Shown: piece after piece, positions 2,189 through 8,967 of the stretch
How the letters are laid out: the number at the start of each line of letters is the position of its first letter
Position numbering within the stretch: the first letter of the stretch is position 1
NCBI GenBank assembly: GCA_017610205.1
Contig: JAFCCL010000011.1
Location: 1 to 37,592, forward strand
Length of the DNA stretch: 37,592 nucleotides
Reading direction: 5' to 3'
Source: Candidatus Iainarchaeum sp.
GTDB lineage: Archaea > Iainarchaeota > Iainarchaeia > Iainarchaeales > GCA-2688035
Notes under the pieces: generated by a model
What the model was told of the DNA's origin: nothing
The model's database searches: none
The model's input: the letters and a program-made list of their open reading frames with translations, nothing else
Program-made: the position numbers and the translations under genes

Positions 2189-3205
2189 ATGTCAAGTTCA
2201 AAAACTGCAAAAACTAAAAGCACTGCTTTTGTTCCTGTTCCTCCAAGAATAATTGACCAGGTTGTTGGACAGGAGAAAAGTGTTGCCTTGCTTAAAAAAG
2301 CTGCTGTGCAGAAGAGAAATGTTTTGCTTATTGGAATTCCTGGAACAGGAAAGAGCATGCTTGCACAGGCAATGGCTGAAATAATGCCTGTTTCAAGGCT
2401 TCATGATGTTTTAATTTATCCAAATCCTGCCGATCAAAACAATCCAAAGGTAAGAGTTGTAAAGGCAGGTTCTGGAAAAAAGATTTTGCAAAAGACAAGG
2501 CTTGAAGCAAAAAAGCAGGATGACAACATGCGTCTGCTTAGTTTTTTGCTTCCAATGGGTGCGTTCATTCTTTCACTTGTAATCTGGCAGCTTGGATGGG
2601 TTCCTGATGTTGTTTTTGCTGCCTTGCTTTTGCTTGACGGTCTTTTGATGATTGGTTTTGGTCTTGGAATGCAGATGAAACCGCGTGGTGTAAAACACAC
2701 TCCAAAGCTTTTGATTGACAATGCCTCAAAAAAAACTGCCCCATTCCTTGAAGCAACAGGGGCAAGGGCTGGTTCCCTTCTTGGAGATGTGCGCCATGAC
2801 CCGCTTCAATCGTTGATTGACGAAGTTAGATTTGTTGTTTGCCGTGCCGGTCTTGAGGAAAAGATTTCCTTTGAAAACTTATGGAAAGAAATGGCAACAA
2901 AATATCCTGAGTTAATTGAAAAACATGAGAAAGGCTATGAGGCAATGGTTTTCCCAAGAGAAGAAGCAGTTTTTGTTTATGGTGTCAATGATAGAAAAGA
3001 GATTGTCAAGTCAAGAATCTATTCAATGAACAGAAAGCCTTATGATGATGAAGTGGTTGAAGTTTCTGTTGGTGAATCAAAAGTTACCTTAACCCCTGAA
3101 CATAGTGTTATAACTAAAAAGGGTGACAGAAAAGCCGAAAAACTTTCCAAGGACGATGAGCTAATTAAAATAGTTAAGCTTGAGCTTGCAAAAGCTTTCA
3201 GTTGA
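2189..3205 (+). CDS. lonB: LonB protease N-terminal half fused to an intein N-terminal splicing domain
   Basis: LonB is the membrane-anchored, ATP-dependent protease of archaea. Residues 1-207 are the N-extein: Walker A GIPGTGKSM near residues 50-58, then two membrane helices (about 115-165) inside the AAA+ module, as usual in archaeal LonB, ending at GDVRHDPLQ. In intact LonB this is followed directly by SGGLGTPAH. Here a foreign 131-residue domain begins with Ser (codon 2810-2812). It contains a Hint-type block B (TLTPEHSVI, with the TxxH motif) and ends at TGA 3203-3205. Block A is atypical (SLIDEVRFVV). The matching C-terminal splicing segment and the rest of LonB lie at 7537-8967. I read this as the N-precursor of a split intein. 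The alternative is a dead, interrupted protease gene, but the coding sequence shows no damage. Confidence 0.85.
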   Translation: MSSSKTAKTKSTAFVPVPPRIIDQVVGQEKSVALLKKAAVQKRNVLLIGIPGTGKSMLAQAMAEIMPVSRLHDVLIYPNPADQNNPKVRVVKAGSGKKILQKTRLEAKKQDDNMRLLSFLLPMGAFILSLVIWQLGWVPDVVFAALLLLDGLLMIGFGLGMQMKPRGVKHTPKLLIDNASKKTAPFLEATGARAGSLLGDVRHDPLQSLIDEVRFVVCRAGLEEKISFENLWKEMATKYPELIEKHEKGYEAMVFPREEAVFVYGVNDRKEIVKSRIYSMNRKPYDDEVVEVSVGESKVTLTPEHSVITKKGDRKAEKLSKDDELIKIVKLELAKAFS

Positions 3206-3480
3206 AAAAAGCTCACCACCTCCACTATCGGAATTTTTTCTTACGACTTGTGTGTTGTTCGGCTTAAACCTTTGCACATCTAATTCTTGTTCTATTAGTG
3301 CAAAGGATTTAATGCCTCCAACGCACTACCGTCTCCAGAAAAAATTTCGAAATCTTTTGGAGGTGGTTCGGTTTGATTTTTTCAAAAAATTTAAATTCTT
3401 CAAGTGGAGGAAGTTTAAAAAGGCTTTATAAATTTTCACCGGAAACCCGCTCTTTGCAAAGCGGCTTAAAAGCAAAAAAA
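3206..3480 (+). other. Structured non-coding stretch after the intein N-domain, possible decayed IS200/IS605-type end
   Basis: No convincing gene is present. The segment holds several inverted repeats: a 10-bp arm ACCACCTCCA (3215-3224) with TGGAGGTGGT (3358-3367); CCTTTGCA (3269-3276) with TGCAAAGG (3299-3306) enclosing CTAAT (3280-3284) and ATTAG (3294-3298); CTCCA (3333-3337) with TGGAG (3358-3362); and CCGC (3447-3450) with GCGG (3461-3464). GGAGGTGGTTCGG resembles GGAGGTAGTTCAC found just past the tnpB stop at 36092, so a decayed TnpB-type element end is one possible origin. A TATA-like TTTATAAATTTT at 3424-3435 could drive the endonuclease remnant. An open frame at 3180-3431 shows no recognisable protein features. 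Confidence 0.4.
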
Positions 3481-3499
3481 CAAAAATCTTACGAGTTCT

Positions 3500-4481
3500 A
3501 TGTTACTTGTTAGTGAACAAGATATAATCAATACTTATTCAGAGAAGGAACAACTCTCTTGCAAAAAATATTCTAAGTACAAAGAGTTAATCAAAGAAAA
3601 CCCTTCGTTTGGCTATAAACGTTGTGCAAAGTTACTGGGCGTTCCGCAGGGAAGGACAAGATGGTGGCATGCCAAGGGGGAAAAGAAAGCAGTTCCTTTG
3701 GCTTTGAAAACAGTCAAAAAACTTAAGTAGAAGGGCTTTCTACCTTTTTATACAAGCCATAAGCACTGCATATCTATTCTAAGAATTCTTGGTGTTCTTT
3801 TTGGTGACGGAGGTATTGACAGAAGGCTTAACACCCTAGCCTTCATTTCAGCAGACAAAAGAGATATTGACTTGTGGGGGAAAGACTTGCTGGAAATCTT
3901 CCCTTTTCTTTCAAACAAGATAAATTTGACTGAGGGGGGAGAGTATGGCCACTCCTACAACATCAGAACCTTTGATAGGAATGTCATCAGATTCTTTGTC
4001 GCACTTGGCACTCCTGTTGGAGATAAGGTTGCAATAAAGTATACTCTTCCGAAATACATTTCGAAACTGTCCGGGAACCACAAAATAGCTTTTCTAGATG
4101 GTTTGCTTTCTTCTGAAGTTTCAGTCACCACTTTTCGTGAAGACACGCGGGAACCGGAAAAGACGTTTCACAAATTTTGCTTTGGGATTAAGTAAGATAG
4201 ACTCTCTTGAACAAGAACACAAAAACTATCTTGAAAATTTAAAGAAATTATGTGCTTCAATTAACTTAACTTGTACTCCCAATTTGAGAAAAGAAACCAG
4301 CAAAATAAACCAGAGAAAGGACGGCCACCTGAGTTGCTGTTACCGAATCTTCTTTCAAACTCATTTTGAAAAAGTGATAAAATTCAACAAATCTTTCCCG
4401 TTAAGATATTGTCAGGACAAAAAGGAGCGCTTGCAGAAGGAAATAGAATTTGCATTAAAATACAAAAACGTAGGCAGCTAA
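3500..4481 (+). pseudogene. Decayed LAGLIDADG homing endonuclease of the lonB intein
   Basis: In the same frame as the intein N-domain, 3500-3727 encodes a helix-turn-helix-like segment (YKRCAKLLGVPQGRTRWW, then ALKTVKKLK) typical of the region before LAGLIDADG motifs in archaeal inteins. An in-frame TAG lies at 3728-3730. Reading on gives KGFLPF and LAGLIDADG motif 1 (ILGVLFGDGGI, about 3780-3815), then motif 2 (IAFLDGLLSSE, about 4088-4120). Around 4185-4192 the frame shifts by one base: FHKFCFGI in one frame continues as LSKIDSLEQEHKNYL in another, up to the stop at 4479-4481. Homing endonucleases of this kind cut intein-free alleles. With a stop and a frameshift this one should be inactive. 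It is detached from both splicing domains. Confidence 0.8.
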
Positions 4482-7506: not shown

Positions 7507-7512
7507 TTTAAA
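7507..7512 (+). promoter_or_regulatory. TATA box for the lonB C-terminal half
   Basis: TTTAAA is centred 27-28 bp upstream of the ATG at 7537, the same spacing as the box before the lonB N-terminal half (2158-2163) and before the winged-helix gene (28501-28506). This supports independent, leaderless expression of the second half. Confidence 0.55.
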
Positions 7513-7536
7513 CCCTTTCCAACATTACTTTTTTCA

Positions 7537-8967
7537 ATGAACGAGAAGAAATTCAAAACTAATTCGGAAAAAGTTTCCTCAATTTCAAAAAGGCCATTCA
7601 AGGGTCATGTCTACAATGTGACAACAGAAACAGGAAACCTTTTTGTTGAAGATATTTTGGTTCACAATTCAGGCGGCTTGGGTACTCCTGCTCATTTAAG
7701 GGTGGAACCAGGAATGATTCACAAAAGCAGTGGCGGGGTTCTTTTTCTTGATGAGATTGCTACCTTAAGTCCAAAGGCACAGCAGGAGCTTTTGACTGCA
7801 ATGCAGGAAAAAAAGTATAGTATAACCGGGCAAAGCGAGCTTTCAAGCGGTGCAATGACCAGAACAGATCCTGTGCCATGCGATTTTGTTTTGGTTGCTT
7901 CTGGAAATTATGCAGATCTTGCAAAAGTGCATCCTGCTTTAAGAAGCAGAATCAGGGGCTATGGTTATGAAATTTATATGAATGTTGACATGCCTGACAA
8001 TGAGGAAAACAGGAAAAAGCTTGTGCAGTTTGTTGCACAGGAAGTTAAAAAGGATGGAAAAATTCCTGCTTTTAGCTTAAGTGCGGTTGATGAAATAATT
8101 TTTGAGGCCAGAAGGCGTGCTGACAGAAAGAACAGGCTTACTTTAAAATTGAGGGACCTTGGCGGTCTGATTAGGGCTTCTGGAGATATTGCAAAAGAAA
8201 AAGGCCATTCTGTTGTAATGCCTGAAGATGTTGTTCAGGCAAAGTTTAGTGCAAAAACTCTTGAACAGCAGATGGTTGACAAGTCTCTTGAATTGAAAAA
8301 AGAGTATGATGTTTACCTTACAAAGGGTGCTGTTGTTGGCAGGGTTAATGGTCTGGCTGTAAGCAGTGACGGTTCGGCAGGAATGATTTTGCCTATTGAA
8401 GCTGAAATGGCTCCTGCTGCAAGCAGAAGCGAGGGCAGAATTATTGCAACAGGAAAGCTTGGAGAGATTGCAAAAGAAGCAGTTCAGAATGTAAGTGCGC
8501 TGATTAAAAAGGTCAGCGGTAAGGATGTCAGCAGGCATGATTTGCATATTCAGTTTTTGCAGACCTATGAGGGTGTGGAAGGAGACAGTGCAAGTGTAAG
8601 TGTTGCCACTGCTGTAATAAGTGCGGCTGAAGGAATTCCAATAAAACAAAGTCTTGCAATGACTGGTTCGCTTTCAGTAAGGGGCGAGGTTTTGCCAATT
8701 GGAGGAGTTTCAAGCAAGATTCATGCTGCAATCAGAGCAGGATTTAAGGAAGTTATTATTCCAAAGTCAAACATGGCTGATATTGTTTTAACAAAAGAGG
8801 AGCTGAAAAAAATAAAGGTCCTTCCTGTTTTAAGTCTGAATGAGGTTTTAGAAAATGCTTTTGTTGACGGCAACAAAACAACAAAGCTTCTTTCATCCTT
8901 AAAGAAACTGCTTCTTTTTTTACCAAAAACCAGTACAAAAACTGTTGCAAAAAAAAGCGTTTCCTGA
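7537..8967 (+). CDS. lonB: Intein C-terminal splicing segment fused to the LonB protease C-terminal half
   Basis: Residues 1-44 are an intein C-fragment: KGHVYNVTTETGNLFVED is block F and ILVHN, followed by Ser, is block G, with the penultimate His, terminal Asn and Ser+1 nucleophile needed for splicing. From Ser45 (codon 7669-7671) the sequence is LonB: SGGLGTPAH, Walker B GGVLFLDE, the arginine-finger region HPALRSRIRGYG, then the Lon protease domain with catalytic Ser in EGDSASVS and Lys in GGVSSKIHAA. Joined to the first half (207 residues), the extein totals 639 residues, normal for archaeal LonB. The ATG at 7537 has its own TATA box. The gene abuts the DUF373 stop codon with no gap, in convergent orientation. 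No stops or frameshifts are visible. Confidence 0.88.
   Translation: MNEKKFKTNSEKVSSISKRPFKGHVYNVTTETGNLFVEDILVHNSGGLGTPAHLRVEPGMIHKSSGGVLFLDEIATLSPKAQQELLTAMQEKKYSITGQSELSSGAMTRTDPVPCDFVLVASGNYADLAKVHPALRSRIRGYGYEIYMNVDMPDNEENRKKLVQFVAQEVKKDGKIPAFSLSAVDEIIFEARRRADRKNRLTLKLRDLGGLIRASGDIAKEKGHSVVMPEDVVQAKFSAKTLEQQMVDKSLELKKEYDVYLTKGAVVGRVNGLAVSSDGSAGMILPIEAEMAPAASRSEGRIIATGKLGEIAKEAVQNVSALIKKVSGKDVSRHDLHIQFLQTYEGVEGDSASVSVATAVISAAEGIPIKQSLAMTGSLSVRGEVLPIGGVSSKIHAAIRAGFKEVIIPKSNMADIVLTKEELKKIKVLPVLSLNEVLENAFVDGNKTTKLLSSLKKLLLFLPKTSTKTVAKKSVS

Follow-up and report, generated by a model that had tools for sequence, protein, structure and literature searches.

An archaeal lonB gene divided into two genes that each carry half of an intein

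Organization of the divided lonB gene

The window analysed here is the entire 37,592-bp contig JAFCCL010000011.1 (contig C2) of a 1.37-Mb, 92% complete assembly of Candidatus Iainarchaeum sp. (G000). The only lonB found in this genome consists of two genes, each with half of a conserved intein, and it is very probable that the two proteins would be joined by trans-splicing into a LonB of 639 residues. The most likely reading of this organization is a fractured, probably mobile intein whose trans-splicing would restore LonB. The two frames lie at 2189-3205 (338 aa) and 7537-8967 (476 aa), with 4331 bp between them (3206-7536). The first reads ...GDVRHDPLQ/SLIDEV...TPEH...AKAFS and then a stop, and the second reads MNEKKF...GNLFVEDILVHN/SGGLGTPAH..., where the slash marks the border between extein and intein; LonB residues number 207 in the first frame and 432 in the second. 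An earlier note, made from the sequence of this DNA, had described lonB as divided into two genes by intein halves about 4.3 kb apart and had expected a LonB of about 639 residues from the two; the frames, the LonB model matches and the junction in a related genome agree with this description.

The NCBIfam LonB model TIGR00764 matches both halves (9e-56 for the N-half and 6e-193 for the C-half), and the C-half alone scores 642.8 bits against a cut-off of 516.6. Neither frame alone contains the whole AAA+ module: Walker A is found only in the first, and Walker B, the AAA lid and the S16 protease only in the second. The first frame also contains membrane helices, recognized by eye from the sequence. 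Together the halves therefore supply the AAA+ module, membrane helices and S16 protease of an archaeal LonB over the length of the model, and the intein site falls between the Walker motifs. In the same-genus genome G003 LonB is continuous, with DPLQ joined to SGGLG exactly at the junction of the window, indicating that the stretch inserted in the window is 2810-7668. Genes on the opposite strand separate the two lonB frames, so neither a single message nor a single frameshift would simply join the halves. A complete lonB elsewhere in the genome, which the earlier note had named as the thing to look for, was not found in LonB searches of the 92% complete assembly; the only other Lon_C match (C3:153017) was rejected as a candidate, its frame having no AAA+ module in the first 706 residues read.

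Intein halves and their splicing residues

The intein N-terminal model TIGR01445 matches the first frame with an E value of 2e-4 (22.1 bits, slightly below the cut-off of 24.5). A profile built from seven N-domains finds solved inteins in PDB, the best being 2jmz, the MJ0781/KlbA intein, at 7e-8, which places the N-domain in the Hint (intein) fold. A first structure model, from seven sequences, was too poor to be used (predicted local distance difference test score, pLDDT, 48.8). The splicing residues of the window are in place: Ser1, TPEH in block B, and HN at the intein end before Ser+1. In an alignment of 102 of the 120 N-halves listed below, every row has Ser or Cys as its first intein residue and keeps the Thr and His of block B, and Asn precedes the extein in 99 of 99 C-halves, so that the window and its relatives share Cys/Ser1, block B T-x-x-H, the terminal Asn and Cys/Ser/Thr+1. 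Cysteine is absent from 33 of the 63 N-domains with Ser1 and from 95 of the 99 C-domains; such cysteine-free halves would be useful for protein-ligation tools.

Thirteen further frames of G000 match an intein splicing model, none with an internal stop, which indicates that breakage of inteins is not general in this genome. These frames lie on contigs C1, C3, C4, C9, C10, C14, C16 and C19, making the assembly very intein-rich for 1.37 Mb.

Relatives in the phylum and beyond

Among 87 genomes of the phylum, 73 of which have a match to the C-part of LonB at 1e-40, 14 encode the C-half in a separate frame starting with an intein C-domain (G000, G004, G005, G016, G017, G018, G039, G049, G051, G060, G066, G074, G076 and G077). 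In the window and in relatives with both halves, the intein N-part ends one gene and the C-part starts the other, which is the organization of a natural split intein. Both halves were found in 13 genomes. In 11 of these they share a contig, and in G066 and G051 they are on separate contigs; in G005 two contigs each hold part of the N-half. Two further genomes, G042 and G048, have an N-half only, and G006 is cut inside the N-domain by a contig end. An unbroken, different intein occupies the same lonB site in G029, G054 and G068 (the G054 frame starts at a contig end), 53 genomes read have no intein across the junction, and G027 has no readable junction. The junction is also carried by eleven named public loci, whose labels include Diapherotrites, 'Candidatus ainarchaeum' and Forterrea as well as evident misnomers such as Chloroflexi. 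Two public records labelled Chloroflexi and Falkowbacteria (L053 and L055) are evidently mislabelled metagenome-assembled genomes (MAGs).

Outside the phylum, the splits seen among the matches listed are a lower bound. G273 has both halves with two opposite-strand open reading frames (ORFs) between them, and in G385 a frame with N-domain and endonuclease is closed by a TGA overlapping the C-half start codon, ATG, as judged by eye from two contig ends. G290 has a C-half, and no N-half was found there. The same layout in related archaea argues against an assembly error, and the split of lonB is not due to chance and probably not to assembly. At three loci the break before the C-domain is an ATGA stop/start overlap, as in translation-coupled genes (L041 8972-8975, L049 5575-5578 and L139 near 196).

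A protein database search with the N-half gave 445 matches at 1e-20, of which 120, the window's own included, were listed and read. Every one of these carries intein sequence after HDPxQ and ends without an endonuclease motif; the first intein residue is Ser in 63 and Cys in 57, and block B is TPEH in 115 and a variant in 2, the remaining 3 stopping before block B. The first 50 residues of the C-half, used as query, retrieved 99 proteins, all with the junction and all starting with a C-domain (median 43 residues); HN/S ends the C-domain in 91, and 98 start with Met. Because only proteins 0.55-1.75 times as long as the query could be retrieved, continuous forms are excluded, and 120 of 120 and 99 of 99 are counts rather than fractions of all LonB.

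Fourteen of the 99 C-halves are longer than 600 residues, have no protease motif and share similar tails that end inside a second intein, whose start motif was matched in 11 of them. In G018 and G051 the next frame, which overlaps by 4 and 14 bases, supplies a second C-domain and the rest of LonB; where the second intein is broken, LonB would come from three chains via two trans-splicing steps. This second intein is broken directly before its C-domain, with overlapping frames, at L049 3638-6792 and L050 1436-4517. A viral origin of the split gene was rejected, as 57 viral-contig stretches matched a pattern and none codes for a relative. Plasmid relatives were rejected too: 93 records match the C-half, all with less than 60% identity, the best two being ordinary Natrinema lonB genes matched only from residue 44.

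The homing endonuclease

The reading of the earlier note as a natural split intein is supported and incomplete: the full form has three parts (N-half, stand-alone homing endonuclease and C-half), and the endonuclease gene of the window, at about 3470-4454, has decayed. The layout that it described holds, and its account lacked this remnant, the genes lying between the halves and the occurrence of the family in other genomes. G004, from the same genus as G000, carries the same N-half of 338 aa, which is followed by a separate frame of 367 residues and then by the C-half. This 367-residue frame matches the endonuclease region of the G093 LonB intein, which is continuous and occupies the same site, and also the NCBIfam model of an intein-bearing RtcB (7e-18); Pfam gave no family for it at 0.01. 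The continuous inteins of G113 and G315 have the same layout as that of G093, judged by eye. The positions at which the three-part form is broken are both borders of the endonuclease domain.

A stand-alone endonuclease gene lies between the halves in G004, G016, G060 and G077, the arrangement of a fractured gene; the window has only a decayed copy of this endonuclease gene. It adjoins the N-half in G042 and G066 and the C-half in L054, its frame appears interrupted in G074, and it has been lost from G005 and G049 and, by decay, from the window. The remnant in the window can be followed in frame 2 as far as 4135, across an in-frame TAG codon at 3728-3730, and in frame 3 from 4167. The genomes can be arranged in a series that starts with a continuous intein (G093), passes to three genes that overlap (G077) and to an endonuclease gene standing alone (G004), and ends with the window, where kilobases and foreign genes separate the halves; with such intermediate forms the route of intein breakage becomes testable.

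Selection and the promoter-like box

The ratio of nonsynonymous to synonymous substitution rates (dN/dS) for the pairs G000-G004 and G000-G005 is 0.15 and 0.12 in the N-intein and 0.16 and 0.10 in the C-intein, respectively. A TTTAA box precedes the C-half at 11 of 15 loci, against a background of about 2%, with the start codon chosen by hand among several in G004, G016, G017, G066, G074, G018, L054 and G077, which may favour the box. Most C-halves have a promoter-like box of their own, which may serve as a promoter. In the window, TTTAAA stands before both genes, where the earlier note had placed it, and the first gene also has an alternative closer to its start (Table 1).

Proposed mechanism and alternative explanations

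We propose that the two intein halves associate, that Ser1 attacks and the N-extein moves to Ser+1, and that cyclization of the terminal Asn then leaves the DPLQ-SGGLG junction. The element would have originated as an ordinary endonuclease-bearing Lon intein that was broken at both borders of its endonuclease domain, and it may have spread by homing. In the window the split intein would have been kept after the loss of the endonuclease because LonB needs both halves. If this is true, a host that depends on a selfish element already broken would provide a clear example of constructive neutral evolution.

Several points weigh against this proposal. The intein halves show no acidic/basic pairing: the C-domains lean positive (77 of 99) and the N-domains do not lean negative (of 117, 39 have a charge below zero and 65 a charge above it), and charge complementarity was set aside. 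No partner half was found in G017, G042, G048 and G290, where the halves present all lie near contig ends. The dN/dS of the intein halves exceeds that of the exteins, and other pairs are less clear, with 0.35 for the N-intein of G066/G074 and saturation in G060/G049 (ratio of nonsynonymous to synonymous differences, pN/pS, 0.53). The decayed endonuclease of the window still has a low ratio (dN 0.12 and dS 1.16 against L054), so that selection in the window is not demonstrable as outlasting the endonuclease. The assembly, moreover, is a draft MAG of 92% completeness. Such a genome might hold an artefact or a pseudogene, that is, a continuous intein-bearing lonB broken by mutation or in a chimeric contig, from which no LonB is made. 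The endonuclease region is truly decayed, as this would have it, and the breaks in G076, G077 and G385 are short frame overlaps of a kind that single-base errors could also produce. We nevertheless consider it very improbable, because identical break points occur in independent assemblies with differing genes between the halves, dN/dS is low in both halves, which also retain their catalytic residues and a start codon, and a promoter-like box precedes the C-halves.

Scarcely more probable is a LonB of two chains, with halves that cooperate without a covalent link and intein pieces that only keep them associated and do not splice. Association of the N- and C-domains alone would unite Walker A with Walker B, and the chemical steps of splicing are deduced rather than observed. 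All 102 aligned N-halves and all 99 C-halves keep, however, the residues that splicing chemistry needs and binding does not (Ser/Cys1, the Thr and His of block B, the terminal Asn and Ser+1), and the intein sits between the Walker motifs of one AAA+ module. Trans-splicing of a fractured intein is the explanation that we prefer. As a plausible but tentative extension of it, there would be a large DPANN family of split inteins with LonB made from two or three chains, in which the fractured unit was moved by its own endonuclease, carrying gap genes, and the death of the endonuclease leaves the host dependent on trans-splicing.

Spread and history of the split allele

Split and intein-free alleles alternate within genera. 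On a quick maximum-likelihood tree of 73 LonB extein rows, which leaves out G010, G071 and G054, scores G006 as split though undecided and has a few long branches flagged, 14 changes are required by the split label, and branches with good support force no fewer than 9 of them; over 500 shuffles of the labels the mean is 16.1 changes, with 51 shuffles going as low as 14. The intein-free G012 lies close to the split G016 on this tree. In the pair G042/G048 the N-exteins are 92% and the N-inteins 62% identical, and in G060/G049 the corresponding values are 77% and 39%, with 92% in the last 36 residues of the C-intein. This disagreement between intein and extein similarities implies that the halves of one intein can have different pasts, and the pattern of alleles would fit homing combined with exchange. 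The Ser1 and Cys1 types of N-intein alternate between these same close relatives, whose exteins are alike, as is the C-intein in G060/G049. Co-conversion between G016 and G012 was considered and dropped as too weak to use, with 11 and 9 differences per 15 codons beside the junction and 8-10 in other stretches.

As regards the spread only, and compatibly with trans-splicing, the split allele might be old and vertically inherited, with many independent losses by recombination in place of spread by homing. The C-domain sequence and the upstream box are conserved between families, as expected of one old origin, there is no clear co-conversion, and cleavage in homing is itself a deduction. This history appears rather unlikely to us, because the 14 changes on the 73-row tree, 9 of them forced, are barely below the shuffled mean of 16.1 (51 of 500 as low), and because intein and extein similarities conflict in G042/G048 and G060/G049.

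Comparison with known systems

Natural split inteins are known from cyanobacterial DnaE and also from outside it. To our knowledge few have been described, and the present family, in a housekeeping protease, alone has 120 listed N-halves and 99 C-halves. The nearest known layout is that of the 'fractured genes' that Dassa and colleagues reportedly described in 2009, split inteins with a free-standing homing endonuclease gene; gene halves with half inteins and an adjoining endonuclease gene are common to both. Those are said to be environmental and phage genes with a new endonuclease family, whereas here the gene is a cellular archaeal protease gene, the endonuclease is of the LAGLIDADG type and often lost, and unrelated genes lie in the gap. 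The split DnaE is alike in its two genes, each with an extein and half an intein, and the absence of the endonuclease is matched in the window, G005 and G049. It differs in host gene and lineage, and complete members of the LonB family keep a separate endonuclease gene and are patchy within genera. Compared with the split DNA polymerase intein of Nanoarchaeum equitans, the host protein is another one, and the LonB split intein is a family in many genomes. The continuous Lon inteins (G093, G113 and G315) have the same site, DP[LF]Q/SGG, and the same order of N-domain, helix-turn-helix (HTH) plus LAGLIDADG, and C-domain, but form one open frame for cis-splicing, unlike the two genes of the window. 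O'Brien and colleagues reportedly described in 2010 a continuous Lon intein of P. abyssi, which we take to be at the same lonB site.

No split LonB intein is described in the titles and abstract openings covered on split inteins with Lon protease, archaea, LonB, Diapherotrites or DPANN, a coverage that has most subscription papers outside it. A 2022 review gives natural split inteins only in cyanobacterial DnaE (PMC8861304). The intein literature drawn on comprises PMC10643990, PMC3229294, PMC5874633, PMC7090010, PMC6801210, PMC4031507 and PMC8861304. Membrane-bound Lon is essential in Haloferax (PMC4343526).

Genes between the halves

The features of the split locus are listed in Table 1.

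Table 1. Features of the split lonB locus in the window
Feature	Position	Strand	Evidence
TTTAAA box before the N-half gene	2158-2163	+	Read directly; putative promoter
Alternative box TTTATATA, closer to the N-half start	2170-2177	+	Read directly
N-extein, LonB residues 1-207 (Walker A, membrane helices)	2189-2809	+	TIGR00764, positions 4-195 of 608
Intein N-domain, 131 residues, Ser1, block B TPEH, then stop	2810-3205	+	Sequence and profile matches
Decayed stand-alone HTH + LAGLIDADG homing endonuclease gene	3470-4454	+	tblastn with the G004 endonuclease frame
Small Cys-rich ORF	4774-5061	-	No Pfam match at 0.01
panD-like aspartate decarboxylase gene	5062-5436	-	PF02261 6e-30; TIGR00223 1e-22, 80.4 bits, below the cut-off of 106
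AAA_14/DUF4143 ATPase gene	5400-6710	-	PF13173 2e-35, PF13635 5e-20
ORF with partial WYL domain	6849-7184	+	PF13280 3e-9
ORF of unknown kind	7150-7476	+	Open frame
TTTAAA box of the C-half gene, same place in most split relatives	7507-7512	+	Putative promoter
Intein C-domain, 44 residues, VHN end before Ser+1	7537-7668	+	Sequence
C-extein, LonB residues 208-639 (Walker B, AAA lid, S16 protease)	7669-8967	+	PF05362 2e-33, PF20436 8e-7; TIGR00764, positions 180-607 of 608

The gap of G005 holds a malate/lactate dehydrogenase gene (PF02615, 8e-121) and that of G049 an ATPase gene, and the gap of G039 is only 287 bp long. Gap genes of L054 and G042 are related (54% over 91 residues). Genes for ATPases of the AAA_14/DUF4143 type occur in or beside three gaps, at L072 4336-5574, L038 1340-2725 and in the window, the family being putative for L038 and L072. 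The idea that the ATPases are one shared cargo was rejected, as identity is only 25-38% among the ATPase of the G000 gap, that of the G049 gap and the one next to the G066 N-half. A reverse transcriptase-like frame (L039 1241-2653), recognized by eye, stands directly before the C-half of G066. In the window, the opposite-strand gene block is flanked by a 41-nt imperfect direct repeat (73%) at 4528-4568 and 6809-6849, and a motif resembling this repeat (CCTCATCATCGCCTA) precedes the C-half in G005.

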